Assembly: GCA_007121535.1 (NCBI GenBank)
Contig: SKKK01000186.1
Coordinates: forward strand, 1-56,728
Direction of reading: 5' to 3'
DNA: 56,728 nt
Source: Planctomycetaceae bacterium
GTDB taxonomy: Bacteria; Planctomycetota; Planctomycetia; Pirellulales; Pirellulaceae
Shown here: positions 19,931 through 37,959 of the stretch, one piece after another
Layout: the number at the start of each line of letters is the position of its first letter
How positions within the stretch are numbered: the first letter of the stretch is position 1
Position numbers and translations under genes: made by a program
The notes under the pieces: model-generated
The model's database searches: none
What the model was told of the DNA's origin: nothing
The model's input: the letters and a program-made list of their open reading frames with translations, nothing else

Positions 19931-19980
19931 ACGACCCCTTTCGCCCGATTCCACCAAGAAATATCTGGCCGGGTGCTTAT
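19931..19980. repeat. Dispersed element, copy A (half element)
   Basis: It contains only the CGACCCC-TTTCGCCCGATTCC-ACCAAGAAATATCTGGCCGGGTGCTTA half of the hairpin element found in full at 43679-43787. It lies just upstream of the helicase operon and directly abuts sequence related, on the minus strand, to the lyase gene at 39825-43631. Confidence 0.75.
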
Positions 19981-20176: not shown

Positions 20177-23100
20177 ATGCCCCGAATATTCGACAACATC
20201 GATCAGTCATTGCTCCCGGCTTTGGCCGAGACGCTGCAGGTATCCAACCGTGCCGACTTCTGCGTGGGCTACTTCAATTTGCGTGGTTGGCGGCACTTGG
20301 ATTCTTACGTGGACCAGTGGTCGGGTCAGGACGATCACTGCTGTCGCCTGCTCGTAGGCATGCAGCGACTGCCGCAACAAGAGTTGCGGGACGCATTGCG
20401 ATTGGTCAAAGAGAACGGCCTCGACAACCAGACTGCGTTGCGCGTGAAGCGGGATCTTGCCGAGGAGTTTCGAAATCAGCTAACGGTCGGATGCCCAACG
20501 AACACGGACGAGATTGGACTGCGGCGTCTGGCCAGCCAAATCAAAGCCAGAAAAGTTCGCGTCAAGCTATTCTTGCGCCATCCACTTCACGCCAAGTTGT
20601 ACCTGTTGTTTCGGTCTGATCGGATCAATCCGATCGTCGGGTACCTCGGCAGCAGCAATCTGACCATGGCCGGGCTGGCAGGACAGGGCGAGTTGAATGT
20701 CGACGTCCTGGACCATGATGCAACGCAAAAGCTCGCAGTCTGGTTCCAGCAGCGTTGGGACGACCGTTGGTGCATCGACATCTCGAAGGATTTGGTCGAG
20801 ATCATCGACCAGAGCTGGGCGCGGCCGGACAGGGTGCCTCCGTACCATATCTATTTGAAGATGGCGTACCATTTATCCCAAGATGCCCGTGCCGGCTTAA
20901 CGGAGTTCCGTATCCCTGCCGATTTCCAAAACAAACTGTTCGAGTACCAGACGGCAGCGGTCAAGATCGCGGCGCATCACCTGAACCGGTACCGCGGGGT
21001 GTTGGTCGGTGATGTGGTTGGGCTCGGAAAGACGCTGATGGCCACGGCGCTGGCGAGAATCTTCGAGGACGACCACGGGCTGAGCACACTGATCATTTGC
21101 CCGAAAAACCTTGTGAAAATGTGGCAGTTCCACGTCGACCACTACCGACTGCACGCCAAAGTCCTTCCGATCAGTCGGGCGATCAGGGAACTGCCCAACG
21201 TACCCGCGCGTTTCCGGCTGGTACTGATCGACGAGAGCCACAATCTTCGGAATCGTGATGGCAAGACGTACCGGGCCATCCACGAATACATCCAGACCAG
21301 CGAAAGCCGCTGCATTCTGCTGACGGCCACGCCCTACAACAAAACGTTTCTGGACTTGTCGAGCCAGCTTCGTCTGTTCGTCCCGGACGACAAGGACATC
21401 GGGCTTCGGCCTGAACAACTGTTGCGGCAAATCGGCGAAACCGAGTTTATCCGTCGGCACCAATGTCCCGTTCGTTCCTTGGCGGCTTTCGAAAAGAGCG
21501 AGTTTTCGGAGGATTGGCAGGAACTCATGCGGCTGTACCTGGTTCGCCGCACGCGCAGCTTCATCCAAGACAACTATGCGGAAGTCGAATGCACCGGTTG
21601 CGGCAGCGGTGTCAAGGCTACCGATTCGAAATGCGCCGCATGCGGCAGGGCCAAACCGAAAGACGGGCGTCGCTTTCTGACATTTGAAGACGGCTCGCGC
21701 TCGTATTTTCCAACCCGCAGGCCTCGGACCGTGGCCTTTTCGATCGATGATGACGATCCGGACGACCAATACGCTCGTCTCTATTCCGATGAAGCCGTTC
21801 GGATCATCAACAACCTGGGACTGCCCCGGTATGGTCTGGGCAACTACGTCGCCCCCGACCCGAAACATCCACCCACGCAATCCGAGGCGCGGCAACTGGC
21901 AGGTCTTTCTCGCGCAGGTAAACGGCTGATGGGTTTTTGCCGCACCAACCTGTTCAAGAGATTGGAGAGCAGCGGACAAGCCTTCATTCAGTCGGTCGAG
22001 CGACACATTCTTCGCAATTACGTCTTTTTGCACGCGATCACGAACGACGAACGATTACCCATCGGGACGCAGGATGCGGAAATGCTCGATCCGCGCTACT
22101 ACGACGCCGACGCGGAAACTGGTGACCTGTTCGGCACGAATAACGATGATACTGTGGTGGAAGAGCCCCTCACTAGCCTGCGCTCGGAAAGCGACTACGA
22201 GGCCCGCGCGGCTGAAGTCTACGCCCAATACGCCGGGCCATACAAGCGTCGTTTCGGCTGGCTTCAACCGGGGCTGTTCATCGACGGTTTGGAACGCGAC
22301 CTGCGCAAGGATGCACGAGCACTGATTCGGTTTCTCAAAAAGTGCGGGCCCTGGGATGCGTCGCAGGATACGAAGCTCGCCGCTCTTCGACAATTGCTCG
22401 TATCGCAGTATCCCGATGAAAAGGTGCTTGTATTCACGCAATTTGCCGACACCGTTCGATACCTTGAACAACACCTGCAGTCCCCGGGCATCGGCCGATT
22501 GGTCGGAGTGACCGGCGACACGTCGGATCCGACGATGGTCGCCTGGCGATTCAGTCCGGACAGTAACGAGTACCGCGAACAATTGCGCCCGGAAGACGAA
22601 TTGCGGGTACTGATCGCCACCGACGTGTTGAGCGAAGGGCAGAACCTGCAGGACTGCTGTGTGGTCGTCAACTACGACCTGCCGTGGGCGATCATACGTC
22701 TGATCCAGCGAGCCGGGCGTGTTGACCGAATCGGCCAGAAGTCGGAGAGCATCCATTGCCATTCGTTTCTTCCGGCCGACGGCGTCGAGCGGATCATCCG
22801 GCTTCGCTCGAGAGTGAAGCGGCGGCTGCAAGAGAATGCCGAGGTGGTCGGGACGGACGAGGCGTTTTTCGAGGGCGACGAAAGCGAAGCGACCATCTTG
22901 GATCTGTACAACGAAAAGGCGGGCATCCTGGACGGTGAAGACGAAACCGAAGTCGATCTCTCGTCCTACGCGTACCAGATCTGGAAGAATGCTATCGAAG
23001 TCGATGCGACGCTGCAGAAAACCATTCCGGCGCTTCCCTCGGTGGTCTACTCCACAAAGGATCACGTACCGTCAGATAAAGAACCGGAAGGCGTGCTGGC

Positions 23101-23629
23101 GTACGTCCGTACAGCCGAGGGAAACGATGCGCTCGCGTGGATCAACCGGAAAGGGGAAAGCGTGACCGAATCGCAGTACGCTATTTTGAAAGCAGCGGCC
23201 TGCCCGCCGGACACTCCGGCGCTGGAACGACATCACAAGCACCACGATCTGGTACGAGACGCCGTCAAATTCATCGCCACCGAAGAACGCTCGACCGGCG
23301 GCCAGCTTGGGCGTCCCTCCGGTGCTCGTTTCCGGACCTACGAGCGGCTCAAACGATTCATCGACGAAATCGAAGAAAAAATGCCCCTGTTCGATTCCGG
23401 CACGCTTCGGCGGGCCGTCGACCAGATCTATCGCCACCCGCTACGGCAGTCGGCGACCGATACGCTTAATCGTCAACTGCGCAGTGGCGCCGGCGACGAC
23501 GAACTCGCCAATATCGTGGTCGCTCTGTACGAAGCAGACCATCTGTGCATCGTCCAAGAGGAAGAACATTCTCAAGAGGCTCAGATCATCTGCTCGCTGG
23601 GGCTTCGGCAATCGGAAGGAGGCAACTAG
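20177..23629 (+). CDS. PLD-nuclease-like / SNF2 family helicase of a defence operon
   Basis: This protein has 1150 residues from ATG 20177, chosen for the AAAGG five bases upstream and because MPRIFDNI is, as I recall, a typical start in this family. An earlier ATG at 20021 remains possible. The N-terminal part has a phospholipase-D-type HxK motif at about 137 (HAKLYLLF...GSSNLTMAG). The helicase has Walker A VVGLGKT (about 279), DESH (about 351), TATP (about 383), a CTGC...CAAC zinc ribbon (about 472-490), then the second RecA lobe ([11 protein letters not shown]) ending in [11 protein letters not shown] (about 845). It is expected to translocate on double-stranded DNA using ATP. It is two bases upstream of the methyltransferase in one operon. 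DISARM and related systems also pair SNF2 helicases with methyltransferases, but the other DISARM genes are absent here. Confidence 0.93.
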
Positions 23630-23631
23630 AG

Positions 23632-26600
23632 ATGACGCTGAATCTCGCGCGTGTGCGAAAATGCCTGAAAGACTGCGATCTCGTCGGACTGTTCACCCAG
23701 GAACTCGGTTGGGACCGCCACGCCGGCGATTTGTTGGTGAACGTCGGGCACGAAGAATACCCGTTGTCGGTAATCGCGGAAAAACGCCGGATGTTTGCGT
23801 ACGAGTGTCCGGCCCGAGATGGTGAAGGAATTCCCGATTATGGCACGCGTCGAAAGATCGAACGCCAAGTCGCGCGCACGGTGCACGAGCACCTGATCGT
23901 TTTCACCGACGCCGACCGCAGCACGCAGCTCTGGCAGTGGGTGAAACGCGAACCCGCTCGCCCCACTGCTTGCCGCGAACATACCTACCACATTTCGCAG
24001 CCCGGCGATGCGCTGATCCAGAAGCTGGCCGCCATCGAGTTCACCCTGGAAGAAGAGGAGGGCTTGACCGTCGTCGACGTGGCTGGCCGCACCCGAGCCG
24101 CATTCGACATGGACCGCGTGACGCGCCGGTTTTACGATCGCTTCAAGACCGAGCACACCGCGTTCTTGAAGTTCATCAAAGGGATCTCAACCGAAGACAA
24201 CCGCCAGTGGTATGCCTCGCTGATGTTGAACCGGCTGATGTTCGTCTATTTCATCCAGAAGAAGGGATTCCTGGACGGCGATCCCGACTATCTGCGCAAC
24301 CGGCTGCGGATGATGCGGCAACTTCGTGGCAAGGACAAATTCCTGTCCTTTTATCGACACTTCTTATTGCGATTGTTCCACGAGGGACTGGGCAGTCCCA
24401 ACCGGAACGTGGAATTGGATGAACTGCTTGGGAATGTGCCGTTCATGAACGGCGGTCTGTTCGACGTCCACGAATTGGAAGAGCACAACCCGGACATCGC
24501 CATCGCCGACAACGCTTTCGAGAAACTCTTCGATTTCTTCGATGCCTATAGCTGGCACCTTGATGAACGGCCTCTGCGGAACGACAACGAAATCAACCCG
24601 GACGTCCTGGGCTACATTTTCGAAAAATACGTCAACCAGAAACAAATGGGCGCCTACTACACCAAGGAGGACATCACCGATTACATCGCCAAAAATACGA
24701 TCATCCCCTGTGTGTTTGCCAAGGCACAGCGCGATTGCCCGGTGGGCTTTGAGTCTGACTCGCCGGTCTGGGCGCTCTTGTCAGATGATCCGGATCGCTA
24801 CATCTACCCGGCCGTCCGACACGGAGTGCTCGGCGAAGAAGGCAATGTCATCCCATTGCCCGAAGCCATTGCTTCGGGTGTTGACGATGTGTCACGGCGC
24901 GAGCGATGGAACGAGCCGGCCGAATCCCCGTACGCGCTACCTACGGAGACGTGGCGGGAACACGTGGCTCGACGCACGCGATGCCTGGAGATCCGCGACA
25001 AACTGGCCGCAGGCAAAGTGCATGAAATCGATGATCTGATCACTCTGAACCTGGACATCTGCCAGTTCGCCCTGGACGCGATCCAGAACTGCGAAGGTCC
25101 GGCGGTACTCCGCGCCTTCTACTACGCCATCGCCGGCCGCATGCCGGAGAAATCGAACCAGCACTTTCGACCGGGCATCAGCGTGCTCGACCCGACATGC
25201 GGATCCGGCGCGTTCCTTTTTGCCGCCCTTAATATCCTGGAACCCCTGTATGACGCGTGCCTGCAGCGAATGCAGAGCTTTCTGGAAGAGGAGAAACCGC
25301 CGACCGTCCCCTCGATCGCAGACGAAATCAAGGCCACGATCGCCGCGGGCGAAAGCGCAACGGTGGAATTCAAGTCGACGGCGCGCTGGGACGTACACCA
25401 GAAGTGCCCGAACAAGGTGATGGAACGCGTGATCGTTGAATCGGTGGCCGCCTTCTTGAACACCAAAGGCGGTACGCTCTTGATCGGTGTCGAGGATAAC
25501 GGCGTCATCTTCGGTCTCGAATCCGATTATCGGGTATGGGGCAAGAAAGGCAACCGCGATCTGTTCGAGAACTGGCTGCTGACGCGGCTCACCGACCACT
25601 TCGGCAAGAGCAGCGCCACGCTACTCGCCGTAGATTTCGGTCGCATCGACGGCAAGGAGGTTTGCCGCGTCATCGTGCAACCCTCGCCGACGGCCGTCTA
25701 TCTCAAAGAAGGAAACACCGATCGCTTTTGGGTGCGCGTGGGCAACTCCAAACGCGAACTGTCCACCTCGGACGCGGTCAAATACATCAAGCAGCGGTTC
25801 GACGACCAACCATCACCGCCGCCTTACGTACCCCTGGTCGCGCCGGCTACGATGGTGACCGGCCGCGTCCGCCATCGACAGTTCCAGCGAATCCTGGCTC
25901 AAGCGGCCGATCATCCCAACCAACGGTACTTCATTCTTAAGTCGATCATCATTGGGAATCTATTCGGCGTCGACATCATGGAAGAGGCCGTCGAGATCTG
26001 CAAGCTGCGACTCTTTCTGAAGCTGGTTGCGCAGGTCGAGACGGCAAACCAGATCGAACCGCTGCCCGATATCGACTTCAACATCCGTGCCGGCAACACG
26101 CTGGTTGGCTTCACGTCGCTCGAAGATGTCGAACGAGCCATGACCCGGGATCTTTCCGGACAAAAGCGTCTGCTGACCGGCGATGATAGGCAAGCCTTGG
26201 ACGATATTCGCGAACGAGCACACGTCGCAGATCGCGCGTACCAACTCTTTAGGCAACAACAAACGAAACTGGGCGGTGCGGTAAGCTACGAAGACAAGCA
26301 AGAACTCCGCCGACGCCTGACAGAACTCAGCAGCGAACTCGACGCGTATCTTGCCCATGATTACGGCGTCGATCCTACCAAACTGAAGGTTTATACATCA
26401 TGGAAGAATTCGCATCAGCCGTTCCATTGGCTCGCGGAGTTCTACGGCAGTATGAAAGAAGGTGGATTCGACGTCGTCATTGGGAATCCCCCATACGTTG
26501 AATATAGCAAGGTGCGACGGACGTACAGGATTCGAAAATTTGCAACTGAGTTATGTGGCAATCTCTATGCTATGTGCACAGAGCGCAGCCTAGAAGTTCT

Positions 26601-27531
26601 TCCCAATGGAGGTAGATTCGGGTTCATCGTGCAGGCGCCTATCGTGTCAACTCAACGAATGAAGAATGTCAGGACCGTGCTACGAAAAAATTGCGATCTG
26701 CTGCTTTGTTCCACCTACGACGATCGCCCAAGTAAGCTGTTTGATGGAATGCACCATTGTCGCCTTGCGATTCTTCTAGCACGAGTGGGCAGGTCGGCAA
26801 GACAATGCAGCATTGCCACCACTCGGTATCACAAATGGTACAAAGAGGAACGCGCTCACGTTTTTCCGACAGTTCGCTACATTTTTCTTCCAAAGAACTT
26901 TTGCAGCGACATTATCCCGAAGTTTCGATCGCAAGATGAGATCGAAATATACAGAATCGTACGGAATATGCCGAGGAGCCTTGGTGAAATGTTTAGTTCG
27001 GTCGAAACGGATCATCGCATCTTCTACAAGATAACCGGTGTCGGGCATTGGTTTACATTCACCCTCAGCCCACCGAAGTTCTGGCGTGATGGACGGGAGG
27101 AGAGTTCGACTCGAGAGAGTAGCGTTTCGTTTTCCAGCCCATTACATCGCGACACAGCGTATTGTTGCTTATATAGCACATTACATTACTGGCTTTATCA
27201 AATTCGAACGAACTGCCGCGATTTCAATCCGTCAGATCTGGGGCATTTACCGATTCCCGAATCTGTTTTTCGAGGCGTGGGCGACTTTCGAACGCTGTCC
27301 AAGAAGATAATGAATCGCCTCATGGAGACATCCACTGTCGGTTCTGCGACATATGCAGTTGGTGGGGCTGTAACGTACCAGCGATTCACACCGAAACTCG
27401 CCAAGGAATTCTTTGATAAAACCGACGAAATCCTCGCTAGGGAGATCGGATTATCCGACAGGCAACTTGACTTCATCCTCAACTATGACATCAAATACCG
27501 CCTAGGGCAGGATAGCGAAGGGAGCACCTGA
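23632..27531 (+). CDS. Eco57I-like N6-adenine methyltransferase with inserted AlbA_2 domain
   Basis: This protein has 1299 residues; GGAGG precedes the ATG. Residues 1-175 form a conserved N-terminal domain (LFTQELGWDR, LSVIAEKRR, HEHLIVF, FTLEEEEGLT) also present in the sigma-like protein four kilobases downstream. The methyltransferase core has GAYYTKEDI (about 340), SAM-binding DPTCGSGAF (about 518), GVDIMEEAVEICKLRL, and the catalytic NPPY (about 952). Between motif I and GVDIMEEA lies an AlbA_2/Schlafen-type insert at about 566-723 (ATVEFKSTARWD, LLIGVEDNG, RFWVRVGNSKREL). The C-terminal about 340 residues probably recognise the target sequence; their coding region is visibly richer in A/T than the rest, suggesting an exchanged specificity domain. 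It probably marks host DNA and may also take part in cleavage. Confidence 0.93.
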   Translation: MTLNLARVRKCLKDCDLVGLFTQELGWDRHAGDLLVNVGHEEYPLSVIAEKRRMFAYECPARDGEGIPDYGTRRKIERQVARTVHEHLIVFTDADRSTQLWQWVKREPARPTACREHTYHISQPGDALIQKLAAIEFTLEEEEGLTVVDVAGRTRAAFDMDRVTRRFYDRFKTEHTAFLKFIKGISTEDNRQWYASLMLNRLMFVYFIQKKGFLDGDPDYLRNRLRMMRQLRGKDKFLSFYRHFLLRLFHEGLGSPNRNVELDELLGNVPFMNGGLFDVHELEEHNPDIAIADNAFEKLFDFFDAYSWHLDERPLRNDNEINPDVLGYIFEKYVNQKQMGAYYTKEDITDYIAKNTIIPCVFAKAQRDCPVGFESDSPVWALLSDDPDRYIYPAVRHGVLGEEGNVIPLPEAIASGVDDVSRRERWNEPAESPYALPTETWREHVARRTRCLEIRDKLAAGKVHEIDDLITLNLDICQFALDAIQNCEGPAVLRAFYYAIAGRMPEKSNQHFRPGISVLDPTCGSGAFLFAALNILEPLYDACLQRMQSFLEEEKPPTVPSIADEIKATIAAGESATVEFKSTARWDVHQKCPNKVMERVIVESVAAFLNTKGGTLLIGVEDNGVIFGLESDYRVWGKKGNRDLFENWLLTRLTDHFGKSSATLLAVDFGRIDGKEVCRVIVQPSPTAVYLKEGNTDRFWVRVGNSKRELSTSDAVKYIKQRFDDQPSPPPYVPLVAPATMVTGRVRHRQFQRILAQAADHPNQRYFILKSIIIGNLFGVDIMEEAVEICKLRLFLKLVAQVETANQIEPLPDIDFNIRAGNTLVGFTSLEDVERAMTRDLSGQKRLLTGDDRQALDDIRERAHVADRAYQLFRQQQTKLGGAVSYEDKQELRRRLTELSSELDAYLAHDYGVDPTKLKVYTSWKNSHQPFHWLAEFYGSMKEGGFDVVIGNPPYVEYSKVRRTYRIRKFATELCGNLYAMCTERSLEVLPNGGRFGFIVQAPIVSTQRMKNVRTVLRKNCDLLLCSTYDDRPSKLFDGMHHCRLAILLARVGRSARQCSIATTRYHKWYKEERAHVFPTVRYIFLPKNFCSDIIPKFRSQDEIEIYRIVRNMPRSLGEMFSSVETDHRIFYKITGVGHWFTFTLSPPKFWRDGREESSTRESSVSFSSPLHRDTAYCCLYSTLHYWLYQIRTNCRDFNPSDLGHLPIPESVFRGVGDFRTLSKKIMNRLMETSTVGSATYAVGGAVTYQRFTPKLAKEFFDKTDEILAREIGLSDRQLDFILNYDIKYRLGQDSEGST

Positions 27532-27532
27532 A

Positions 27533-28210
27533 ATGACGGCGCAAGACCGAATCCGGCGCATTCTCGAAGACCTCGAGGCTGTGCGCGAAAACTTGCTCGC
27601 CTTGTCCGATGACATCTGGCTCAGTATCGAACACAACGATTCGGACGCTCTTGAAGAGGGCGTTCAGTTCAAGCGGACGTACAACGAGAAGATGGCGGCG
27701 TTCGACGCGCTGGCGACCGAACTATCGGCGCTGGTCCAGCAGTTTACCGAGGTGCGACTCGAGGCCGGTGAGCAGACCGGCGCGGAGGACGAGTCGGAGA
27801 ATGTCAGGATCATTCAAGAGTTGAACCGCGACGAGCCGCATGGTATCGGGGAAGATTTCACATACAAGCGGCCCTACGGCTTCATCCTCGATGGCCAAGC
27901 GGCGACCGGGATAACGACGTGGCGGCGGTTGCATGAGCTGCTCTGCCGACAACTCCTTCGTCGCGATACGGATCGATTCCGCGCATTGAAGGAGCACGCA
28001 CAGTTTATCAGCAACCGCGGTCACCACGCCTTCACCGACTCACCCGAGCAGCTTCGTCACGCTTCCCAAGTGGGCGAAGGCATGTACGCCGAGGTGAACC
28101 TGTCGGCCAACTCGATCCGTGACTTGATGCGCAGATTGCTTTCGGTATTCGAGATCCCGGAGAATCGCCTGCAAATCTTCTTGCGCGAGGACCGTGACGC
28201 AGGTGCATAG
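27533..28210 (+). CDS. Helical defence-operon protein of unknown function
   Basis: This protein has 225 residues and starts one base after the methyltransferase stop. It is mostly charged helices: DRIRRILEDLEAVRENLLALSDDIW, then a likely coiled coil (KMAAFDALATELSALVQQF), an acidic linker, and a compact C-terminal half (YKRPYGFILDG, TTWRRLHELLCRQLLRRD, RGHHAFTDSPEQLR). The last about 30 residues (IRDLMRRLLSVFEIP...LQIFLREDRDAG) are preserved in the deleted second locus at 36980-37076, so the gene is a regular member of this operon type. I recognise no enzyme motif. It may be an adaptor between helicase and methyltransferase. Confidence 0.85.
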   Translation: MTAQDRIRRILEDLEAVRENLLALSDDIWLSIEHNDSDALEEGVQFKRTYNEKMAAFDALATELSALVQQFTEVRLEAGEQTGAEDESENVRIIQELNRDEPHGIGEDFTYKRPYGFILDGQAATGITTWRRLHELLCRQLLRRDTDRFRALKEHAQFISNRGHHAFTDSPEQLRHASQVGEGMYAEVNLSANSIRDLMRRLLSVFEIPENRLQIFLREDRDAGA

Positions 28211-28246: not shown

Positions 28247-29620
28247 ATGAGCGAAATCACCAAGTATCTGAATCAACATCGATTCACAGATCTCTTCATC
28301 GAGATTCTGGGTTGGGATCGTGCTTCCGGCCACGTCAGTTTCGCAGTAGACGGACGCAGCGTCCGTCTATCGGTGATCTCGCAAAAAAGGGGCCTTCAAG
28401 TCTTGCATGTCACGACCAATCATCTGACATTGATCGATCGTGGCCTTCTTCGGCGTATGCAGCGCACCGTTTCTAAATTGATTCATGAGCACGTCCTGAT
28501 CTGCTCGTGCGAAGTCCCAAGAAAGCAAGTCTGGCTTTGGGCCGTGCGTCGGGAGGACGGTCGCCGTCTTCGCCACCGTGAGCATCCGTTCTTCTCCGAT
28601 TCACCGCCGCCTCGCTTGCTGAACCGTCTGGAACTCCTTCGGTTCACCTTGGATGAAGAGGAAGACATCACCCTGATCGATGCGTTTCGGCGAGTGCGTG
28701 ATGTGCTGGACACCAAGGCCGAACTGAACTTGTTCGCCAACAAGCCCTGGTATGCCGCCCGAAGCGACGAACTAGCTCGAGCGATGCAGGAGGGCGGCGA
28801 CGACGAGCTGAGTGCCTTCCTTCAATTTCATCGTCCGTTGGTCACCTGGGCTGTTCGTCCGTTGCTGCACCTGTACCACGGATGCCAGGAGGACGCCGAA
28901 CAGTCCGGGATGATTGGACTCTTACACGCGGCTCGACGGTTTCAGCCTGATCGGGGCTTTCAGTTTTCAAGCTATGCTACCCGGTGCATCCAGGGATACT
29001 GCAAACAAGACGCACCGCTTTGGTTCAGTCCCATCCGCGTACCAACGAACGCCTTTTGGCCGTGTTCCAAGCTGAAGCGAAAGCTCCAGCGGGTCCTGGC
29101 CGGTGGCGGTCCGCAAGCCGTAGCTGCCTATCTTCGGCGACTGCGGCAACATGATGCCAACCTGACAGAGGCATGGAACCGGGTTCAGATCGTCGAAAAC
29201 GTTCGGTCTTTGTCGCACCCAAGCGAGCCCGAGTATTGGCAGGCGAGACGTCTCATCGATCCCAATGGATTTCTCACCGACGATCTAGCCCGCAGGGAAC
29301 TCGCGGCCGCGGTGGACGATGCAGTGTCGCAGCTTCGACCACGCGATGCCGCGTTCGTCCGACTTAAGTACGGATTCGCGGGCGACGAACTGACACTCGA
29401 AGAAATCGGCAGGCAGCACGGCGTATCACGAGAGCGAGTAAGACAACGATTGCTCAGGGTCCTTCCGAAATTGGAAAGAATCCTAGCGGGATTGGGTGTG
29501 CGAGCGACGGAAGACCGGCGTACAGAAGAAGAACTGGAGGAAAACGGGTCGATTGCCGATGCCCCAAGCCATTTTCAGTTCGACGTGGAGACCAGTGTGC
29601 CATGCGCAAATGGAACGTAG
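28247..29620 (+). CDS. Sigma-70-like protein fused to the methyltransferase-type N-domain
   Basis: This protein has 457 residues. Residues 1-157 align by eye with the N-terminus of the methyltransferase in the same operon: LFIEILGWDRASG versus LFTQELGWDRHAG, LSVISQKRG versus LSVIAEKRR, IHEHVLI versus VHEHLIV, RFTLDEEEDITLID versus EFTLEEEEGLTVVD. Residues of about 185-265 are sigma-70 region 2 (DAEQSGMIGLLHAARRF, DRGFQFSSYATRCIQGY), followed by IRVP. Residues of about 352-412 are region 4 with a textbook helix-turn-helix (LTLEEIGRQHGVSRERVRQ). Region 1.2 is absent, a region 3 is unclear, and the tail is acidic. It lies 36 bases after the 225-residue gene, and its last 19 bases overlap the DprA-like gene. 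It may redirect RNA polymerase, or may use sigma folds to recognise DNA within the defence complex. Confidence 0.88.
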   Translation: MSEITKYLNQHRFTDLFIEILGWDRASGHVSFAVDGRSVRLSVISQKRGLQVLHVTTNHLTLIDRGLLRRMQRTVSKLIHEHVLICSCEVPRKQVWLWAVRREDGRRLRHREHPFFSDSPPPRLLNRLELLRFTLDEEEDITLIDAFRRVRDVLDTKAELNLFANKPWYAARSDELARAMQEGGDDELSAFLQFHRPLVTWAVRPLLHLYHGCQEDAEQSGMIGLLHAARRFQPDRGFQFSSYATRCIQGYCKQDAPLWFSPIRVPTNAFWPCSKLKRKLQRVLAGGGPQAVAAYLRRLRQHDANLTEAWNRVQIVENVRSLSHPSEPEYWQARRLIDPNGFLTDDLARRELAAAVDDAVSQLRPRDAAFVRLKYGFAGDELTLEEIGRQHGVSRERVRQRLLRVLPKLERILAGLGVRATEDRRTEEELEENGSIADAPSHFQFDVETSVPCANGT

Positions 29621-30288
29621 CGATGGAAATGTCGTCAGGTGATGCCGCGTATCCTTGTGCATTACGCGAGCGAGGACTGTCCGACAGGTATCCGCACATC
29701 TGGGCATACGGCGATTTGACGCTGTTGTCGCAGCCATTGCTTTCCTTCTTCTGTTCCGCCCAGTGCCCCGGAAGCCTGATCCTCGACGCCTACGACCTTG
29801 CAAGAGAACTGCGAGACGCTGCGGTCCCGGTCATTAGCGGCTTTCACTCGCCTATCGAAAAAGAGTGTTTCGATCTGCTTGTGGGCGGCTCACAACCAGT
29901 TATTGTTTCCCCCGCCCGCGGTATCGCGCGGATGCGCGTTCCCAGTGGATGGCGCGAGCACTTGGAAGCCGGAAGATTATTGATTTTGTCAACGTTTGCC
30001 CCGGAAAACCAGACGCCACGTACTGCCCTGGCTCGGCGTCGCAACGAATTCGTCGCCGCATTGTCGCAGGAGTGTTTCGTTGCCCACGCTGCAGCCCGCA
30101 GTAAAACGCTGGATTTTTGCCGACAGCAACTTGCGGCCAAGAAGAGAATACTCACCATCGATCGCCCCGAGAACGAGCCACTAATGAATCTAGGTGCCGA
30201 CGGCCTAACGGTCAACCAGATCGTCCAACGGTGGTCGAACCCAACCCCAGCAACCGAAAAGCGCGTCAGTAAGCAGCCACAGCCATGA
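29602..30288 (+). CDS. DprA-like DNA-processing protein
   Basis: This protein has 228 residues. It shows a DprA/Smf Rossmann core: AVPVISGFHSPIEKECFDLL, a second strand VIVSPARG, LILSTFAP, the ARRRNEFVAALSQ helix, and a C-terminal TIDRPENEPLMNLGA. It lacks the long winged-helix tail and the N-terminal SAM-like part of competence DprA, so it is a short, defence-type version. DprA proteins bind single-stranded DNA and load recombinase. It overlaps the sigma-like gene by 19 bases and is last in the operon. A broken homologue closes the second, deleted locus (38770-39044), which suggests it is a constant part of the system. Confidence 0.82.
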   Translation: MRKWNVAMEMSSGDAAYPCALRERGLSDRYPHIWAYGDLTLLSQPLLSFFCSAQCPGSLILDAYDLARELRDAAVPVISGFHSPIEKECFDLLVGGSQPVIVSPARGIARMRVPSGWREHLEAGRLLILSTFAPENQTPRTALARRRNEFVAALSQECFVAHAAARSKTLDFCRQQLAAKKRILTIDRPENEPLMNLGADGLTVNQIVQRWSNPTPATEKRVSKQPQP

Positions 30289-30396: not shown

Positions 30397-31491
30397 TTAA
30401 CCTTGAGACTCAGTTCCCCTAACGTGCAATTTCCTCGAACGTCGTGGTGTACTCGCACTGTTACGAATCGCGAGTATATGCCGGCCAACATGTTCCGCCA
30501 ATTTCACGGGTACTGCATTGCCAATCTGGATCGCGATGTGCTTGTTGGAGCCATAGAAGACGTATTCATCATCGAATGTTTGCAAACTCGCCGCTTCCCG
30601 AAGCGAGATTGCGCGATCTTGCGATGGATGACCATACCGTCCGTTGGAAATGCTGTGACAGCGTCCGGTGAGTGCCGGAGCCGGCTTATCCCACCACATT
30701 CGTCCATAGACATCGGAATGGCCGTGGTAGTCAGAGCTATGGCACTCCAGGACTAAATGAGCGGGCCAAGACCGCCGATCCCCACCGTTTTTCGGAGTAC
30801 AACGCAGTCTCTCCATGTTGATTGCGGAGATGTCGGCCGAGACATGATTGGCTATCGACGGATGCTGCTGTCCGGCGCGAATCCGAGGATACTGGCAAAT
30901 GGTTTCGCGAACGGTTCGAAACGGCAGCAGTCCGGGACCGCAAATCTTTGGGGGAAGCGAAGGCGTAATTCCACGCATCGCAATGAGTATGTATCTCCGC
31001 CGATTCTGGGGAACGCCATACGACTTGGCGTCGACAATTCCCTCCTCATATTCATAGCCGCAATCTTCAAGGGTTCTGATGAAGCGCCGATAGGTGCTGT
31101 ACCCCGGCACCCTTCTGATACCCGGAACATTCTCGATGAAGACTTGGCCCGGCAAGAACTCTCGGACGAACTCGGAGAACGAGCCGAGTAGTGTGCCGAC
31201 AGGCCCTTTGTCCGATCGCTTCCTTTGCTGGGAAAACGGCTGGCAAGGTGCACACCCGGCAAAGAGCAAGTCGTCAGACTCGACGTTTTTCGAGTATTGC
31301 AGGATTTGTTGGTACCGGACGTCGCGAACATCCACTGTCAGGAAGGAAACCGACGGATTGTTACGCACGTACGTCTGACGGCACCGGTCATCGGAGTCGA
31401 GCCCCAGGACGACGGAAACCCCGGAATTTAATAGTCCTCTCGTGAGCCCTCCGGCTCCACAGAAGAAATCCACCGCAATCATTGCCGCCAT
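30397..31491 (-). CDS. DNA (cytosine-5) methyltransferase
   Basis: This protein has 364 residues, normal for a stand-alone C5 methylase. Motif I is DFFCGAGG (8-15). Motif IV is APCQPFS, with catalytic Cys83. Motif VI is ENV (120-122) and motif VIII is QNRRR (162-166). A target-recognition stretch follows, then motifs IX/X (RECH-like ISLREAASLQTFDD, IQIGNAVP). It transfers a methyl group from SAM to cytosine C5. It is the last gene of the ATPase-receiver-methylase operon, starting six bases after the receiver gene stop, and converges with the DprA-like gene. ATG at 31482 is an alternative start. The Vsr endonuclease 3.4 kb away fits repair of T:G mismatches made by 5-methylcytosine deamination. 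Confidence 0.95.
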   Translation of the reverse strand: MAAMIAVDFFCGAGGLTRGLLNSGVSVVLGLDSDDRCRQTYVRNNPSVSFLTVDVRDVRYQQILQYSKNVESDDLLFAGCAPCQPFSQQRKRSDKGPVGTLLGSFSEFVREFLPGQVFIENVPGIRRVPGYSTYRRFIRTLEDCGYEYEEGIVDAKSYGVPQNRRRYILIAMRGITPSLPPKICGPGLLPFRTVRETICQYPRIRAGQQHPSIANHVSADISAINMERLRCTPKNGGDRRSWPAHLVLECHSSDYHGHSDVYGRMWWDKPAPALTGRCHSISNGRYGHPSQDRAISLREAASLQTFDDEYVFYGSNKHIAIQIGNAVPVKLAEHVGRHILAIRNSASTPRRSRKLHVRGTESQG

Positions 31492-31497
31492 CCCGTC

Positions 31498-32613
31498 TTA
31501 CGATCTATCCCATGCCTGAATAACCGCATCAACCCAACCTTGATTGTCGCACGGCGGTGCTCCGGGTCGGCCCGTAACCTGCAAGTAGTTCCACGCCACC
31601 TGTTCGCGAAACGGACTGTCAATCGACGCTACGCGCACGAATCCTTTGCCTTCATCCGCAAAATCACCGATATTCTCCAACGCGACCAACACCAAATCGC
31701 GCAGATTCACCGCCATCGACGGAAAAATGTTCGGATACTCGGGCAGCAAAAGGTAACCGTCGGCATAACACTCGTTCAGCAACGCAGGAAGTTTGTTCTT
31801 GAGTTTGGAGGCGCCCGTATTCGACGCCAGGTTGGCCCCCTTCGTGAAGAACAGTCTCCAGTCGCAACACGCGGCAACGAGAGCTGATTTAACCTTTGGC
31901 CCTTGACTTCGGACCATGTCGCACGTGGGCGTTATGACGACACGATACGCTGTAGGATCGGTTGGAGACTTCTCTCGTTCTCGAATAAGATCTGCCATCA
32001 TCAGGTCCGGTTCGAGTGGAGGAATAATGTACTTTTCCCAATTGGCCAACCGGCGATCCTCGGCGATGACGTCATGATCCAACACGGCGGCGATTCGTCG
32101 ACGGGCCGCCCTCATGAGCATATCGCGTCGAACCTCTTCATCTGTTTCTCCGGCAAATACGTGGACGGAAACATCTTTGAGGACCTGCTGGAGAGTTTCC
32201 AGTATTCGGTCTTCGACGGCATGAATTCCGTTCACGTGGGAGGAAAACCCGCCAACAATGCCTATCACTTCCTGATCCGTGCCGGGCCCTTTCGCCACCA
32301 AGCGGACAAACGGATGCTCCGAGGGTAGTTGATGCTCGATGCTCTCGGCACGTGCCGTGTAAACCACGATCGGGCAAAAACGTCGGGCCCACACTTCCTC
32401 CCAAATGCCAGATCCGGGGAATTGCGTCCGATCCGATTCGTCGAGCGCCAAATCGAGGATGACGACGTCGGGTTTCGTTCGGGAAAGACGATCAATGGCC
32501 CGGTTGAAGTCGTGCTCAATGCTGAACTCGACGGGTGAAAGCCGTTCCTCCGCAAGTTCTTTCACGGTATCGGCCAAGTCGGAATCGTCTTCGATCATCA
32601 GAAGGTTGAGCAT
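31498..32613 (-). CDS. Receiver-domain protein with unknown C-terminal domain
   Basis: This protein has 371 residues. Residues 1-120 are a canonical response-regulator receiver: acidic pair Asp9/Asp10, phosphoacceptor Asp54 (VVILDLALDE), Thr86 (VYTARAE) and Lys108 (VAKGPG). The remaining about 250 residues contain no DNA-binding helix-turn-helix that I recognise. They include ARRRIAAVLDHD, YRVVITPTCDMV, AACCDWR and a long helical end. It is 27 bases after the ATPase gene and 6 before the C5 methylase, so the three form one operon. Phosphotransfer from the neighbouring kinase-like ATPase is likely; the C-terminal domain may be the effector of this module. Confidence 0.85.
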   Translation of the reverse strand: MLNLLMIEDDSDLADTVKELAEERLSPVEFSIEHDFNRAIDRLSRTKPDVVILDLALDESDRTQFPGSGIWEEVWARRFCPIVVYTARAESIEHQLPSEHPFVRLVAKGPGTDQEVIGIVGGFSSHVNGIHAVEDRILETLQQVLKDVSVHVFAGETDEEVRRDMLMRAARRRIAAVLDHDVIAEDRRLANWEKYIIPPLEPDLMMADLIREREKSPTDPTAYRVVITPTCDMVRSQGPKVKSALVAACCDWRLFFTKGANLASNTGASKLKNKLPALLNECYADGYLLLPEYPNIFPSMAVNLRDLVLVALENIGDFADEGKGFVRVASIDSPFREQVAWNYLQVTGRPGAPPCDNQGWVDAVIQAWDRS

Positions 32614-32640
32614 CGCGTGGTTCCCAGTTTGTGGTATTTG

Positions 32641-34791
32641 CTACTTCTTCAGAGGAACGTCGAACACAAAGGTGGCCCCGCCTAGACCGCCTTGAGGGAG
32701 GTATTTCATTTGACCGCCGTAGGCGGCAACGAGTTCCGAAGCGATCGTCAGCCCCATTCCGATCCCGTTCGGTTTTCGGGTAACGCCGGCCAAGAAGATC
32801 TTATACCAGTATTCTTCCGGAACCCCCGGGCCGGAATCCTCGATGGTCACTTCGGCTCGCTGTTTGCGCCGTACCCTGGTCAGCCGGATCGCCAATTGCC
32901 GCTTTCCGTCTCGCGTCTGTCCCAACCAGTAGAATGCATTATCGAGCAGATTTAGCAGGATGGCATCCATCTCGCCCGGATCCACCGCAACTCCGCAACT
33001 ACCAGTGGGAAATCGAATGATGTCGATATTCAGCTTCTTCGTTTCGGCCGATTTTGCGTCAAGAAGTCTCGCGACTCGATCAACCAAATCGCAACTCCTT
33101 CTTCCCCGTCTGAACGACCGATTGGCCAGCGGGGCGAAGGTCTCAGCCAATTGAGCGAGCGAGGCGATCGCGTTTTCGGCACGTCCCACATTTCGCGTCA
33201 TCTTTTCCGTTACTTCGTATTCCTCCGCAAATTCGCGGAAGGCGCGCACGAATGCGTTAATTGTCGTGGTCCGGTTTCGCACCTCGTGCACAAGGAACTC
33301 GGCAATGGTTCCAACAGTCGCGAGTTGGCTGTAGTAGATGAAGCGCCGCTCGATTTCTTTTCGGGTCTTGGCGAGGTTTCGCTCATGTTTCTTGACAAAC
33401 TGGAGGGCATCCTTGGCAGACGCGCCCTCGTCCGCGGCTTCAACTACTTCGTCGACCAGATCCTCTGCGGAAAGGCCGTCGAATATCTCGGCCATCGGTT
33501 TCTCGACCGCTGCTTGGTCTATGCGATCGGCCTGCCGTTCGTTTTCGAGCGTCGCCACGGCACAAACGAGGATATGCTCGAATGCGCGAACCTCCGGCAA
33601 ATCGACGAGCCTTTCGCGGTCGCTTGTATCCTTGATCTTGGGATTCCGATCGGCCGTAATCGTGGCGTAGCCCACGAGTTGGCTTGTGCCAAGGCGCTTG
33701 CCGACGTCGCTAATCCGACGCCGATCCAGACCTAGCCAATCACGAGAGTTCTCGGATTTGGGTAGTACGAGAATCCCGTCGCGATAGACCGAAATCCCTT
33801 TGTAGGCACCGATTGACTGGCGGATTGTGCGTTTGTCCAAATCGTAGTGGTCGGCGATGTCCCGTACCCCAACGAGATCGACGTCCCACGCCCGAATCTC
33901 GAAGGAGAAGGGACCGCAGCCCGGATTCTCCAGACCGACGACTCTTCTCGGCGCCGTCCTTTCCTCGCGCATCGTTTCCCACTGCAACTCGCCGGCGATG
34001 CTCCGTCTGACCTTCTTGGAACCGATCGGTCGAAATGAATAGCACCACTTCAGACTGCCGGCTTCATCGACCGTACCTTCGAGGGCATATTTGGGGAACT
34101 TGAGGAACTCTTGCGGCGTGATCCGAGTTGGAGTGGTATCGCCCTCATTACGCGACAGCCATATTGAAAACCCTTCTACCGTCTTGAACGGTGACACCAT
34201 TCGCGACAGGTGATCCTGCAACTCGTCCACACGATCCTCGTCCCACTCCGATTTCAAGTCGTAGATCCGGATTCGCGTGCCCGTGCGTTTGACGGCCGGG
34301 CTCGCTGTTGCTTCATTTACTTCCACCGTACACGACGAGAGGTCGTCGGATTCGGCGAGTTCGTCCCAGTCGACCTGCACTTCCCAACAAGGTTCGCTCT
34401 TGGCCTTCGTCAGCATTTCCAGACGGTTTCCCAAACGCGCGGCAGAGAGTCGACCAAGGCCTTTCTCACCCGAGGCACGCCGCGCACGAGGTCCCTTGCC
34501 AGAGGTGGGGCGGGTCAGTCGAAACGGTGTGCCTACCATGCACCACACATCCCGAATGATCTCCAGACTCATGCCCTCGCCATCATCTTGAATCTCGATG
34601 AACTCCCCCGAATCATCCGATCCGAAGCGAACATCCACGCGCTTTGCAAAGGCATCGTACGAGTTCTTGACGAGTTCGGTGATGGCCACCAAGTCGTTCG
34701 TGACCAAATCCGATCCCAACGCGGAGAAGACCCGCGGGTGAAATGCGAGGGGAATCGACTTGCCCTTCGTGCTCCGACTCGTTTTCGACAT
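32641..34791 (-). CDS. Double-GHKL ATPase / histidine-kinase-like sensor
   Basis: This protein has 716 residues from ATG 34791 (GGAAG upstream; ATG 34803 is the alternative). The N-terminal part is a GHKL ATPase of the Hsp90/MutL/MORC style: ELVKNSYDA as N-box (about 36-44), DDGEGM, and a glycine-rich GEKGLGRLS lid. The C-terminal half is a standard histidine kinase: phospho-accepting H-box FLVHEVRNR (about 500), N-box LLNLLDNAF (about 617), DSGPGVP and GIGMGL. There are no membrane segments, so it acts in the cytoplasm. Having both ATPase types in one chain, with a receiver, a C5 methylase and Vsr as neighbours, resembles the MORC/MutL-like ATPases reported in restriction-modification loci. 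It may sense unmodified or damaged DNA. Confidence 0.88.
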   Translation of the reverse strand: MSKTSRSTKGKSIPLAFHPRVFSALGSDLVTNDLVAITELVKNSYDAFAKRVDVRFGSDDSGEFIEIQDDGEGMSLEIIRDVWCMVGTPFRLTRPTSGKGPRARRASGEKGLGRLSAARLGNRLEMLTKAKSEPCWEVQVDWDELAESDDLSSCTVEVNEATASPAVKRTGTRIRIYDLKSEWDEDRVDELQDHLSRMVSPFKTVEGFSIWLSRNEGDTTPTRITPQEFLKFPKYALEGTVDEAGSLKWCYSFRPIGSKKVRRSIAGELQWETMREERTAPRRVVGLENPGCGPFSFEIRAWDVDLVGVRDIADHYDLDKRTIRQSIGAYKGISVYRDGILVLPKSENSRDWLGLDRRRISDVGKRLGTSQLVGYATITADRNPKIKDTSDRERLVDLPEVRAFEHILVCAVATLENERQADRIDQAAVEKPMAEIFDGLSAEDLVDEVVEAADEGASAKDALQFVKKHERNLAKTRKEIERRFIYYSQLATVGTIAEFLVHEVRNRTTTINAFVRAFREFAEEYEVTEKMTRNVGRAENAIASLAQLAETFAPLANRSFRRGRRSCDLVDRVARLLDAKSAETKKLNIDIIRFPTGSCGVAVDPGEMDAILLNLLDNAFYWLGQTRDGKRQLAIRLTRVRRKQRAEVTIEDSGPGVPEEYWYKIFLAGVTRKPNGIGMGLTIASELVAAYGGQMKYLPQGGLGGATFVFDVPLKK

Positions 34792-34864
34792 GAATTCTTC
34801 CACCGCGTCAGCTCAGATTGCCGTCCTGGAACCGGCTGGGTTGCCAATCTACGTTCATGTTCAC

Positions 34865-34892
34865 ATTATAACGGGTTAGTGGATCAACGCAA
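34865..34892 (-). promoter_or_regulatory. Predicted sigma-70-type promoter of the ATPase-receiver-methylase operon
   Basis: Read on the minus strand, TTGCGT and a perfect TATAAT are 16 bases apart, placed about 75 bases before the ATPase start. The 130-base gap is shared with the divergent vsr gene, so both could be controlled from here. Confidence 0.55.
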
Positions 34893-34922
34893 TATTGTAT
34901 CAACCGCTGGAGAAATCCTTCG

Positions 34923-35339
34923 ATGGCCGACCGTTTTTCCACCCGGAAACGTCAACGGATAATGCAAACGGTCCGAACCCGGGACACCGCACCGGAGCAA
35001 GCCTTGAAAGCAGCGTTGCGTGACTTGGGGGTCGTTTTCGAGCAGAATACCACGCAGCTACCAGGCACACCGGACTTTTTTTTCCCGGACTGCGCTACCG
35101 TCGTATTCGTTCACGGATGCTTCTGGCACGGTCATCAAGCGTGCCCAAAGGGCAGGAATCGTCCCAAGACCAACAAGCGATTCTGGCAAAACAAGCTCCG
35201 GGAGAACCTCCGACGAGACCGTCGTGTCGCTCGAGAGCTGCGCGCGATGGGCCTCAGCGTGTATACGGTATGGGAGTGCGAGATCAAGCAGTTCGGGTTA
35301 CCGACAAGGTTGCGAAGTCGACTGCTTGCCCGCGACTGA
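34923..35339 (+). CDS. vsr: Very short patch repair (Vsr) endonuclease
   Basis: This protein has 138 residues, the usual Vsr length. The motifs are in order: MQTVRTRDTAPE, then GTPDFFF with catalytic Asp51, then VFVHGCFWHGHQACPKGRNRPKTN carrying the His/Cys structural zinc ligands, FWQNKLRENLRRD, and a VWECE strand near the end. Vsr nicks DNA at T:G mismatches that arise when 5-methylcytosine deaminates and works next to C5 methylases. It is divergent from the operon ending in the C5 methylase. Vsr-fold proteins can also serve as restriction nucleases, and since no other nuclease is seen in this module, that is a real alternative. Confidence 0.93.
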   Translation: MADRFSTRKRQRIMQTVRTRDTAPEQALKAALRDLGVVFEQNTTQLPGTPDFFFPDCATVVFVHGCFWHGHQACPKGRNRPKTNKRFWQNKLRENLRRDRRVARELRAMGLSVYTVWECEIKQFGLPTRLRSRLLARD

Positions 35340-36579: not shown

Positions 36580-36675
36580 TCGAATTGAACAGCCGCTGGC
36601 GTTGGAAATCAGCATTGACTGTACCGATGCTATTCGAATCCGCGGCATCGGCGTGAAATTCAAGGTAATAACCAT
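36283..36675 (-). pseudogene. Remnant of an exo-rhamnogalacturonan-lyase-like gene
   Basis: 36283-36579 encodes an intact C-terminus ([16 protein letters not shown]...SDYFAPWRP) almost identical to that of the large lyase-like protein. Upstream, in another frame, 36590-36675 reads [12 protein letters not shown]...GTVNADFQ, similar to LLEFHADDPDFD...AAIQADFQ from the middle of the same family. About 360 codons between the two motifs are missing and the frames do not match, so this is a deletion-fusion pseudogene. Confidence 0.75.
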
Positions 36676-36829
36676 GGTTCCCCTTCGTATCGACGATGGG
36701 TACTGCGAATTCGCCCGCGGTTGTATGTACATCGACGATTTGAGATACTGTTCTCCGCTGGTCGAGCACGGTTGGCTGATCGTGACGTCGTTCGGCCAGC
36801 AATTGCCAACCGCGAAAGCTAAAGGTGCG

Positions 36830-36979
36830 ATGCCCAGAATATTCGACAACATCGATCAGTCATTGCTTTCGGCTTTGGCCGAGACACTGCAGGTTTCAAA
36901 CCGTGCCGACTTCTGCGTGGGCTACTTCAACTTGCGTGGTTGGCGGCACTTGGATTCCTACGTGGACCAGTGGTCGGGT
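36830..36979 (+). pseudogene. Helicase remnant (5' end only) of a second defence operon
   Basis: The first 50 codons ([38 protein letters not shown]...) are nearly identical to the PLD-SNF2 helicase at 20177, and the 200 bases upstream match as well. Homology stops at TGGTCGGGTC (36980), the point matching 20327, and passes directly into the end of the 225-residue gene. Confidence 0.9.
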
Positions 36980-37076
36980 CCGTGACTTGATCCGCAGATT
37001 GCTTTCGGTATTGGACAACCCGGCGGATCGCCTGCAAATCTTATTGCGTGAAGACCGTGACGCAGGACACGATTGA
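36980..37076 (+). pseudogene. 3' remnant of the 225-residue operon gene
   Basis: The sequence encodes [29 protein letters not shown], matching RDLMRRLLSVFEIPENRLQIFLREDRDAG at 28118-28205. The shared bases TC at the junction with the helicase remnant suggest a simple deletion equal to about 7.8 kb of the intact operon. Its TGA overlaps the ATG of the following HipA-like gene. Confidence 0.88.
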
Positions 37077-37945
37077 TGTGTAAGGCAAACCAAGTCAACT
37101 CGACACCCGCCCCTTGGCGGCCCACAACGTTCGTGCGTCACGAACAGTCCCTTGACACAAGCATGGGCACGGCACGAATCGTGACGGATGCGGGTCCAGC
37201 GTACATCAAGGCCCTGGGCAATCGGCAGGGCCCCCACCCATTGGCCTGCGAGTGGGTCGCTACACACTTGGCGGATTGGCTGGGGCTGCCGACCTTCGAT
37301 TGTGCAATCATCGAAATCGACGCAGAGATTGACCAGATCCCGTTTTTCCGGGGTGGCATGGCTGCGTCGGGACCGGCTTTCGTGACGCGGGCGGCTTCCG
37401 GCCACACATGGGGCGGATCCCCCGAGGAATTGGGGCGTCTGGTGAATCCAAACGACGCGGGAAAGCTGGTTGTGTTCGACACGTGGGTCAAAAACTGTGA
37501 CCGCCATCCTCCCGATTTGACGGTCCGGCGGCCGAACTACGATAATGTATTCTTGGAGGACGTTGACGATGGAACAGGTAGCACCAAGTCGCGGCTGGTG
37601 GCGATGGACCACACGCACTGTTTCACGTGCGGTCGCGACCTCGACGAGCGGGTTGCCTACATCGATAAAGTAAACGATGATCGGCTTTATGGATTGTTTC
37701 CGGGATTCAAGCCCCGGGTTCGACAGGACGATATCGAAGCCGCGATTGGCCGACTGAGTGAATTAGACCAAGCGGCAGTCTTCGAAATCGTGGCATCGAT
37801 TCCGGACGCGTGGGAAGTTAGTTCGAAAGCGGCTATGGCGCTGGTGAAGCTTATCTGCCGGCGAGCGGATTTTGTTGCAGACACGATCCTTAAATTCGTT
37901 GGCAGGCAGTGCTGGCCCGTCCAGTTATTCGACAATCGGCAGTGA
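37076..37945 (+). CDS. HipA-like kinase-fold protein (HipA_2 type)
   Basis: This protein has 289 residues. It shows the HipA family pattern: AYIKALGN (ATP-binding Lys), HPLACEWVATHLADWLGLPTFD, FDTWVKNCDRHPPDL (catalytic-loop region) and LVAMDHTHCF (metal-binding Asp). Its ATG overlaps the stop of the truncated upstream gene, so it was translationally coupled to the 225-residue protein in the ancestral operon. The next gene is DUF3037; I recall HipA_2 and DUF3037 genes as frequent neighbours. There is no HipB-like helix-turn-helix gene, so it is not a classical HipBA pair. A protein-kinase role in defence is inferred. Confidence 0.85.
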   Translation: MCKANQVNSTPAPWRPTTFVRHEQSLDTSMGTARIVTDAGPAYIKALGNRQGPHPLACEWVATHLADWLGLPTFDCAIIEIDAEIDQIPFFRGGMAASGPAFVTRAASGHTWGGSPEELGRLVNPNDAGKLVVFDTWVKNCDRHPPDLTVRRPNYDNVFLEDVDDGTGSTKSRLVAMDHTHCFTCGRDLDERVAYIDKVNDDRLYGLFPGFKPRVRQDDIEAAIGRLSELDQAAVFEIVASIPDAWEVSSKAAMALVKLICRRADFVADTILKFVGRQCWPVQLFDNRQ

Positions 37946-37959
37946 CGGAGGGAATTACG

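Follow-up and report, generated by a model that had tools for sequence, protein, structure and literature searches.

A sigma-70-type protein with a methyltransferase-type N-terminal domain in a planctomycete restriction operon

What might a sigma-type protein do inside a restriction operon, and from where did it take its N-terminal domain? The question is raised by a planctomycete DNA stretch of 56,728 nucleotides, whose full length is called the window below and in which an initial annotation had reported a sigma-70-like protein, here named SIG, sharing its N-terminal domain with the restriction methyltransferase of the same operon. A sigma factor seated on the docking domain of a restriction enzyme would directly wire a DNA-defence complex to RNA polymerase. 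The operon lies on the + strand in the order PLD-SNF2 helicase, methyltransferase, ORF225, SIG and DprA-like gene, and its features are the following:

20177..23629, + strand, PLD nuclease domain and SNF2-type helicase (Pfam PLDc_2, SNF2-rel_dom and Helicase_C; PADLOC C3a139 'HKD+Snf2', E 1e-41)
23632..27531, + strand, type IIG-like adenine methyltransferase (PADLOC PDLC03628, 1061 bits; Pfam Eco57I and SLFN_AlbA_2)
27533..28210, + strand, ORF225, a conserved 225-aa protein with relatives about 60-70% identical in other PLD-SNF2 or SIG loci
28247..29620, + strand, SIG, 457 aa with an ATG start, composed of a methyltransferase-type N-domain (1-158) and a sigma-70 body (about 170-412)
28247..28720, + strand, shared N-domain of SIG (residues 1-158)
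28892..29476, + strand, sigma regions 2 to 4 of SIG (residues 216-410, corresponding to E. coli RpoD 403-599 by phmmer against PDB chains)
29602..30288, + strand, DprA-like protein (Pfam DNA_processg_A, E 6.4e-13; PADLOC PsyrA, E 2e-18)

The helicase carries the motifs HAK (at residue 138), GSSNL, GLGKT and DESH, and the methyltransferase has the shared N-domain (residues about 1-160), an AlbA_2 insert and the motifs DPTCG and NPPY. ORF225 has no match above cut-off in Pfam and none in PADLOC or NCBIfam. The DprA-like frame has possible starts at 29602, 29623 and 29629, the first ATG overlapping the end of SIG.

Domain make-up of SIG

Residues 1-155 of SIG are 31% identical to the methyltransferase of the operon (156 columns, BLASTP E 6e-26, single pair), and the PADLOC type IIG model PDLC03628, which is independent of this comparison, matches residues 4-158 at E 3.9e-19, with SIG covering only positions 8-160 of the 1100 of the model. 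The adenine methyltransferase domain is missing from the chain, and the Pfam scan found no methyltransferase family in SIG. Because circularity was to be avoided, two separate profiles were built, one from nine fusion N-domains (A5) and one from 12 methyltransferase N-domains (A6), and their comparison by hhalign gave a probability of 100 and an E value of 1.4e-39 over 157 columns. On sequence grounds, the N-domains of SIG and of the type IIG-like methyltransferase in the operon are homologous; the similarity first noticed by eye is thus significant also between profiles. Of the blocks that had been matched, LGWDR, LSVISQKR/LSVIAEKR and FTLDEEEDITLID/FTLEEEEGLTVVD are found in SIG and methyltransferase, but the last letter of HEHxxI is not shared, since SIG has HEHVLI and the methyltransferase HEHLIV.

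The AF2 model of SIG residues 1-170 (pLDDT 89.5, pTM 0.87) is composed, in order, of two helices, three strands, two helices, three strands and three helices. Foldseek returned 0 matches between this fold and solved structures at E 0.001, and the best PDB chain by sequence, at E 0.14, is not meaningful. With VIA the best Z was 6.3, for a racemase, and a putative restriction endonuclease domain (9y1l) reached Z 5.0. The weak structure rows include SSO0001 and Uma2-like entries, which we take to be PD-(D/E)XK folds, amid racemases and pyrophosphatases; no D...(D/E)xK motif is conserved in the N-domain alignment, as judged by eye. The lack of a structural match is no evidence against any particular fold.

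The sigma-70 regions 2 and 4 described for the rest of the protein are borne out: Pfam Sigma70_r2 matches residues 213-253 with 35.2 bits (cut-off 24), Sigma70_r4 matches residues 360-409 with 41 bits (cut-off 24.1), TIGR02937 matches residues 187-412, and no non-sigma Pfam family passes its cut-off. The protein ends, from residue 422, in a low-confidence tail. In the model of full-length SIG (pLDDT 79.8) the pTM is 0.47, so that the placement of the N-domain relative to the sigma body is unreliable; the 50 Foldseek rows shown for this model are all sigma or polymerase-complex entries. The body belongs with the sigma-70 factors of RpoD/RpoS type. It has regions 2 and 4, the -35 helix, D403 and Q406 in common with RpoD and RpoS and differs from them by the methyltransferase-type domain, which stands in place of region 1.1, and by the change of E407, W433, T440 and, in most copies, W434.

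These residues, numbered as in E. coli RpoD through the alignment of SIG 216-410 to RpoD 403-599, were compared between 10 SIG rows and 17 sigma rows chosen by motif from the fetched loci, which their residues divide into 14 of RpoD type and three of a different type. D403, Q406 and E407 are core-binding residues. The first two have equivalents in all SIG rows (10/10 each; comparison rows 17/17 for D403 and 14/17 for Q406, with E in three), whereas the E407 equivalent is found in 0/10 SIG rows and 17/17 comparison rows. W433 and W434 form the -10 melting dyad of housekeeping sigma factors, which marks the housekeeping types and not the whole family; W433 is kept in 0/10 SIG and 14/17 comparison rows, W434 in 4/10 and 17/17, respectively. 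The window SIG has R and C at the two positions, and residue 434 is non-aromatic in four copies (window, L065, G504 and G775). T440 has no equivalent in SIG (0/10), F427 is kept in 10/10 and Y430 in 7/10, and the -35 helix RER[VI]RQ is kept in all eight SIG rows that reach region 4 (8/8). The three comparison rows of the other type also lack W433, T440 and Q406. With D403, Q406 and the -35 helix kept, contact with RNA polymerase and reading of the -35 element by SIG look possible, and promoter melting looks altered, most so in the four copies with a non-aromatic residue 434.

Distribution, descent and gene neighbourhood

The fusion is not confined to the window: counting it, 11 SIG-type copies were found in 10 genomes, nine of which are therefore others. 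Whole SIG compared with 60 relatives gave one further fusion (G025) among the matches listed, and the comparison with 392 phylum genomes at E 1e-18 yielded four methyltransferase N-domains and no other fusion. The N-domain profile A1 matched 16 of 397 class genomes, in which copy types were assigned by reading frames. SIG-type copies are present in seven of the 16: G000 (the window), G025, G504, G579 (two copies), G589, G775 and G662 (N-domain piece only). A methyltransferase N-domain is present in 11: G000, G052, G497, G498, G504, G516, G567, G576, G708, G736 and G763, the last being our own assignment of a divergent contig-edge frame beside a helicase and the other ten being confirmed by blastp to the window methyltransferase. 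An unbroken SIG occurs together with a methyltransferase N-domain only in G000 and G504, that is in 2 of the 11 class-sample genomes, which makes SIG an accessory. These counts suggest that SIG truly belongs to a PLD-SNF2 / type IIG methyltransferase / DprA-like system, as an optional component.

A collection covering 84,980 species, scanned for peptide patterns, gave nine loci, one of which (L073) is an ordinary sigma factor and eight of which are of SIG type:

L065, Candidatus Anammoximicrobium (genome label G777)
L066 and L072, Gemmatales KatS3mg105 (counted as the copies of G579)
L067, Planctomycetales (counted as the copy of G504)
L068, Schlesneria (counted as the copy of G589)
L069, Pirellulaceae (genome label G778)
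L070, Planctomycetota UWPOB_PLANC2 (genome label G779)
L071, Planctomycetota LacPavin (counted as the copy of G775)

Loci titled without the phylum name are presumably also planctomycetes; the scan detects only copies with one of two peptide patterns, so that restriction of the fusion to planctomycetes is not established. Profile A5 matched 12 of 392 phylum and 13 of 396 order genomes, with no new SIG among them; frames were read in G120, G232, G430 and G966 (methyltransferases, whole or broken) and the others were assigned by frame length and score. No fusion was found in viral contigs, two of which were matched by the methyltransferase query. Whole SIG matched two plasmid records (E 1e-8) and six phage records (E 1e-5), all from residue 156 at least, which is the sigma part, and a phage or plasmid origin of SIG was rejected on this basis.

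In the tree of N-domains, the SIG domains (9 rows) are split from the methyltransferase domains (19 rows, that of the window included) with support 100/100, the window SIG pairing with the SIG of L065 and the window methyltransferase with the methyltransferase of L065. In the tree of sigma bodies, eight SIG rows stand apart from 17 other sigma rows, again at 100/100, with long branches flagged. The separate SIG clade rules out a recent duplication of the N-terminus of the operon's own methyltransferase; the domain belongs to the methyltransferase "of its own operon", as it had been put, by place and not by origin. The two trees fit one old fusion followed by joint inheritance.

In six SIG copies the frame stays open across both domains; five of the six stand beside a PLD-SNF2 helicase, and the five unbroken copies other than that of the window are 36-57% identical to it. 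L065 adds one gene to the window order (SNF2, methyltransferase, AlbA_2/HATPase_c_4 protein, ORF225, SIG, DprA-like), L069 has SNF2, methyltransferase, DprA-like and SIG, L068 (= L052) has SIG, ORF225 and DprA-like on a 4.4-kb contig, and in L070 SIG directly follows SNF2 at the contig end. All five genes are present in G504, where SIG is encoded on the other strand from its four companions and a stop lies near the start of the methyltransferase frame, so that an unbroken SIG there accompanies a possibly damaged methyltransferase. In G504 and G579 SIG is divergent from the DprA-like gene, a placement that is common for regulators. Despite the varying gene order, SIG adjoins ORF225 or the DprA-like gene in the window, L065, L067, L068, L069 and L072.

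The SIG frame of L069 (9944-13429) extends in frame to 1162 aa with a long C-terminal region, which matches the PADLOC candidate defence family PDC-M33A (E 3.3e-15) and shows, by eye, the GHKL-like motifs E...N..DA and DLG..GLGK; it has no Pfam family and no PDB chain at E 0.1 (phmmer). By our own reading of these motifs the region may be a GHKL ATPase. No ATG precedes the N-domain in this frame, whose first M is residue 158, so that the start codon must be another.

Five of the 11 copies, in four genomes, are broken: in G579 one copy lacks about the first 50 residues and the other has a frame change, in G775 an in-frame stop lies between regions 2 and 4, the SIG of G025 stops after region 2 and that of G662 is a fragment. 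At E 1e-40 over nine genomes, the helicase was found in G504, G777, G778 and G779 and not in G025, G579, G589, G662 and G775, and the methyltransferase was found in G504, G777 and G778 and not in G025, G579, G589, G662, G775 and G779. The DprA-like protein (ten genomes, E 1e-15) was found in G000, G504, G579, G589, G777 and G778 and not in G025, G662, G775 and G779. A helicase is present in 5/6 genomes with unbroken SIG versus 0/4 with broken SIG (Fisher P 0.048, uncorrected for kinship and draft state); the genomes are mostly draft MAGs, in which contigs may be missing and frame breaks false. Next to the broken copies of G579, ORF225 and the DprA-like gene are still present, hence decay is not bound to the loss of every partner. 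The linkage of SIG to the PLD-SNF2, Eco57I-type and DprA-like gene set is supported, but a fusion always beside PLD-SNF2 and Eco57I-type genes, a point that was to be checked, is not what we find: the four broken-copy genomes and G589, whose copy is unbroken, match neither at E 1e-40, and in G779 (L070) the helicase is present and the methyltransferase was not found.

Several smaller observations concern the partners. The AlbA_2 (Schlafen-type) domain lies inside the methyltransferase in the window (residues 575-711) and in L069, and L065 has a separate AlbA_2 and HATPase_c_4 protein (7312-9045) beside the methyltransferase. ORF225 is about 60-70% identical between distant planctomycetes (the window, L027 5962-6933, L060 14598-15350 and L061 14058-15161) and also occurs in G040, G736 and G516, genomes where SIG was not found. 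A small helix-turn-helix gene stands just before the helicase in L065 (68-292), a SIG system, and in L060 (5456-5623), which has no SIG and where the gene matches Pfam HTH_17/MerR; among the searched loci only these two have such a gene.

Described defence systems and the possible role of SIG

The claim that no described defence system has a dedicated sigma-like subunit was too strong, in view of MzaA of the MZA system and of ECF sigma genes near conflict systems. MzaA, like SIG, is sigma-70-like, and it is a named subunit of an anti-phage system (mzaABCDE). Z1 and AIPR are MZA partners; the Pfam scan of nine proteins, SIG and its eight neighbours, found neither of them beside SIG. The MzaA model NF041931 is the top NCBIfam match of SIG, and MzaA its only sigma-type PADLOC match, with a score on NF041931 of 78.5 bits against a cut-off of 800. 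In a control, 246/246 phylum genomes matched this model at E 1e-15 and 0/246 exceeded the cut-off; RpoD-like proteins across the phylum reach about 355-390 bits. Scoring below the cut-off and far below the RpoD-like proteins, SIG was rejected as an MZA member. In PMC9523054, mzaA is called a sigma factor and AIPR is mentioned as well.

Type IIG R-M systems (PDLC03628) have the same N-domain and the same gene neighbourhood, here with a PLD-SNF2 partner, and SIG is without the methyltransferase part. To the controller (C) proteins of type II R-M systems, described as helix-turn-helix activators or repressors in the excerpt of PMC3874152, the likeness is in the proposed role of a dedicated regulator inside an R-M operon; the build is different, a sigma body with a methyltransferase N-domain and not an R-M C-type helix-turn-helix. 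ECF sigma genes lie beside EACC2/caspase conflict systems (excerpt of PMC8195603), where a sigma factor is coupled to a conflict system as in SIG, but as a separate ECF gene, and the excerpt mentions no restriction-enzyme domain. BrxL of BREX has a SIGMA-HTH-like domain, so that here, too, a defence protein contains a DNA-binding fold of sigma-like type (PMC12839542); in the portion consulted, this domain consists of three helices of an AAA+ protein and, unlike SIG, has no sigma regions 2 to 4. No paper on a fusion of a restriction-methyltransferase domain with a sigma body was found in the open-licence literature, most subscription papers lying outside this scope. A sigma-like subunit or regulator in defence is thus already known, and it is the build of SIG that is undescribed within the open-licence literature searched.

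We favour, with a probability of about 0.5, the reading of SIG as a sigma-type regulator that is dedicated to this system, though optional in it, and linked to the restriction complex via the shared docking domain. The N-domain would bind one partner in both SIG and methyltransferase, perhaps the helicase-nuclease, ORF225 or the DprA-like protein, and, having this domain in common, the two would compete for it; free SIG would join RNA polymerase core and switch transcription of the operon or of a small regulon, and the switch would follow the state of the restriction complex. The role would be that of a type II C protein, taken by a sigma factor for which the docking domain of the methyltransferase serves as sensor of the complex, and a defence island could in this way sense the state of its own restriction complex. 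The N-domain homology with clear sigma regions, the 11 copies in 10 genomes with one clade for the N-domain and one for the sigma body, the D403/Q406 equivalents (10/10) and RER[VI]RQ (8/8) all argue for this reading, as do the PLD-SNF2 gene with 5/6 unbroken copies, the broken copies lying in genomes without a helicase or methyltransferase match, the adjacency to ORF225 or the DprA-like gene that persists as gene order varies, the opposite strand in G504 and the divergent placement from the DprA-like gene in G504 and G579. It is weakened by the change of E407 (10/10), W433 (10/10) and W434 (6/10), which makes normal promoter melting doubtful, and by a search for a common promoter upstream of five SIG-bearing operons, whose best two-hexamer total mismatch of 12 was no better than the 11 or 12 of 12 mononucleotide-shuffle sets, five sequences giving low power. 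Moreover, most class-sample systems of this kind are without SIG (2/11 have an unbroken one), so that the system can exist without it, the long in-frame extension in L069 suits a signalling or adaptor protein equally, and in G504 the unbroken SIG accompanies a methyltransferase that may be damaged.

The loss of E407, W433 and T440 in 10/10 rows, with the -35 helix kept in 8/8, also suits a protein that starts no transcription and whose sigma body attaches to RNA polymerase core and/or -35-like DNA, while the N-domain brings the PLD-SNF2 helicase-nuclease to promoters, or replaces the methyltransferase in the complex there, with cutting or marking of active or phage-held promoters as the outcome. 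We regard such an adaptor, which would be a new way of target choice, as possible though somewhat unlikely. The docking domain common to SIG and methyltransferase speaks for it, and in L070 SIG directly follows the helicase in a genome where the methyltransferase was not found, but this locus is at a contig end. The helicase matches RapA, a polymerase-associated SNF2 protein, with 56.4 bits in NCBIfam, a match that says little because DrmD (131 bits) and DpdE (103 bits) outscore it; and W433 and T440 are likewise missing in 3/17 comparison rows (non-RpoD type), so that such losses alone do not mean a lost sigma function. A rather unlikely, more far-reaching form is a restriction system that reads transcription, in which a sigma-derived, non-melting SIG would swap with the methyltransferase and steer the PLD-SNF2 protein to promoter-bound or phage-held RNA polymerase; the choice between self and non-self would then rest on what is transcribed as well as on methylation. 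Conceivably the sigma body could also give DNA specificity, standing in for a target-recognition domain. It is quite unlikely that SIG is an abortive-infection effector, made on infection to sequester RNA polymerase core, or a phage-modified core, and stop phage and host transcription: D403 and Q406 are kept while the -10 residues are lost, as such a sink would allow, but the change of E407, which has a role in core binding, should weaken its grip, and the -35 helix would be unneeded. A HipA-like kinase and DUF3037 at the place of SIG in a decayed operon copy look as if the site took effectors or toxins, but that copy may come from a chance deletion and insertion. That SIG is a relic, an old fusion with no present role that is carried along and decaying, is very unlikely; 5/11 copies are indeed broken, but the breakage occurs where helicase and methyltransferase were not found, and the five other unbroken copies, 36-57% identical to that of the window, have retained both domains and share the key residues. 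With six unbroken and five broken copies, 11 in all, material for comparison is at hand.

Other features of the window

A decayed second copy of the operon lies at 36628-39044. Its first part, 36628-36980, corresponds to the helicase start at 19974-20327 with 94% identity; joined to it without a gap is 36979-37066, which matches the ORF225 end at 28116-28203 with 90% identity. Next come a HipA-like kinase at 37073-37945 (Pfam HipA_2 E 4.9e-14), a DUF3037 gene at 37909-38769 (E 2.2e-16) and, at 38799-39044, a DprA-like frame that is shortened and scores below cut-off (E 8e-4), the kinase and the DUF3037 gene thus taking the place that SIG has between ORF225 and the DprA-like gene.

Between the two copies, at 30397-35339, the opposite strand encodes a C5-methyltransferase, a response-regulator-like protein and a protein with BbrUII-type and histidine-kinase-type ATPase domains, and the + strand a Vsr gene; the group resembles a restriction cluster linked to a two-component system. 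Near 19932, 36076, 39567, 43702, 46956 and 53966 there is a dispersed repeat of about 40-110 bp, present in both orientations.
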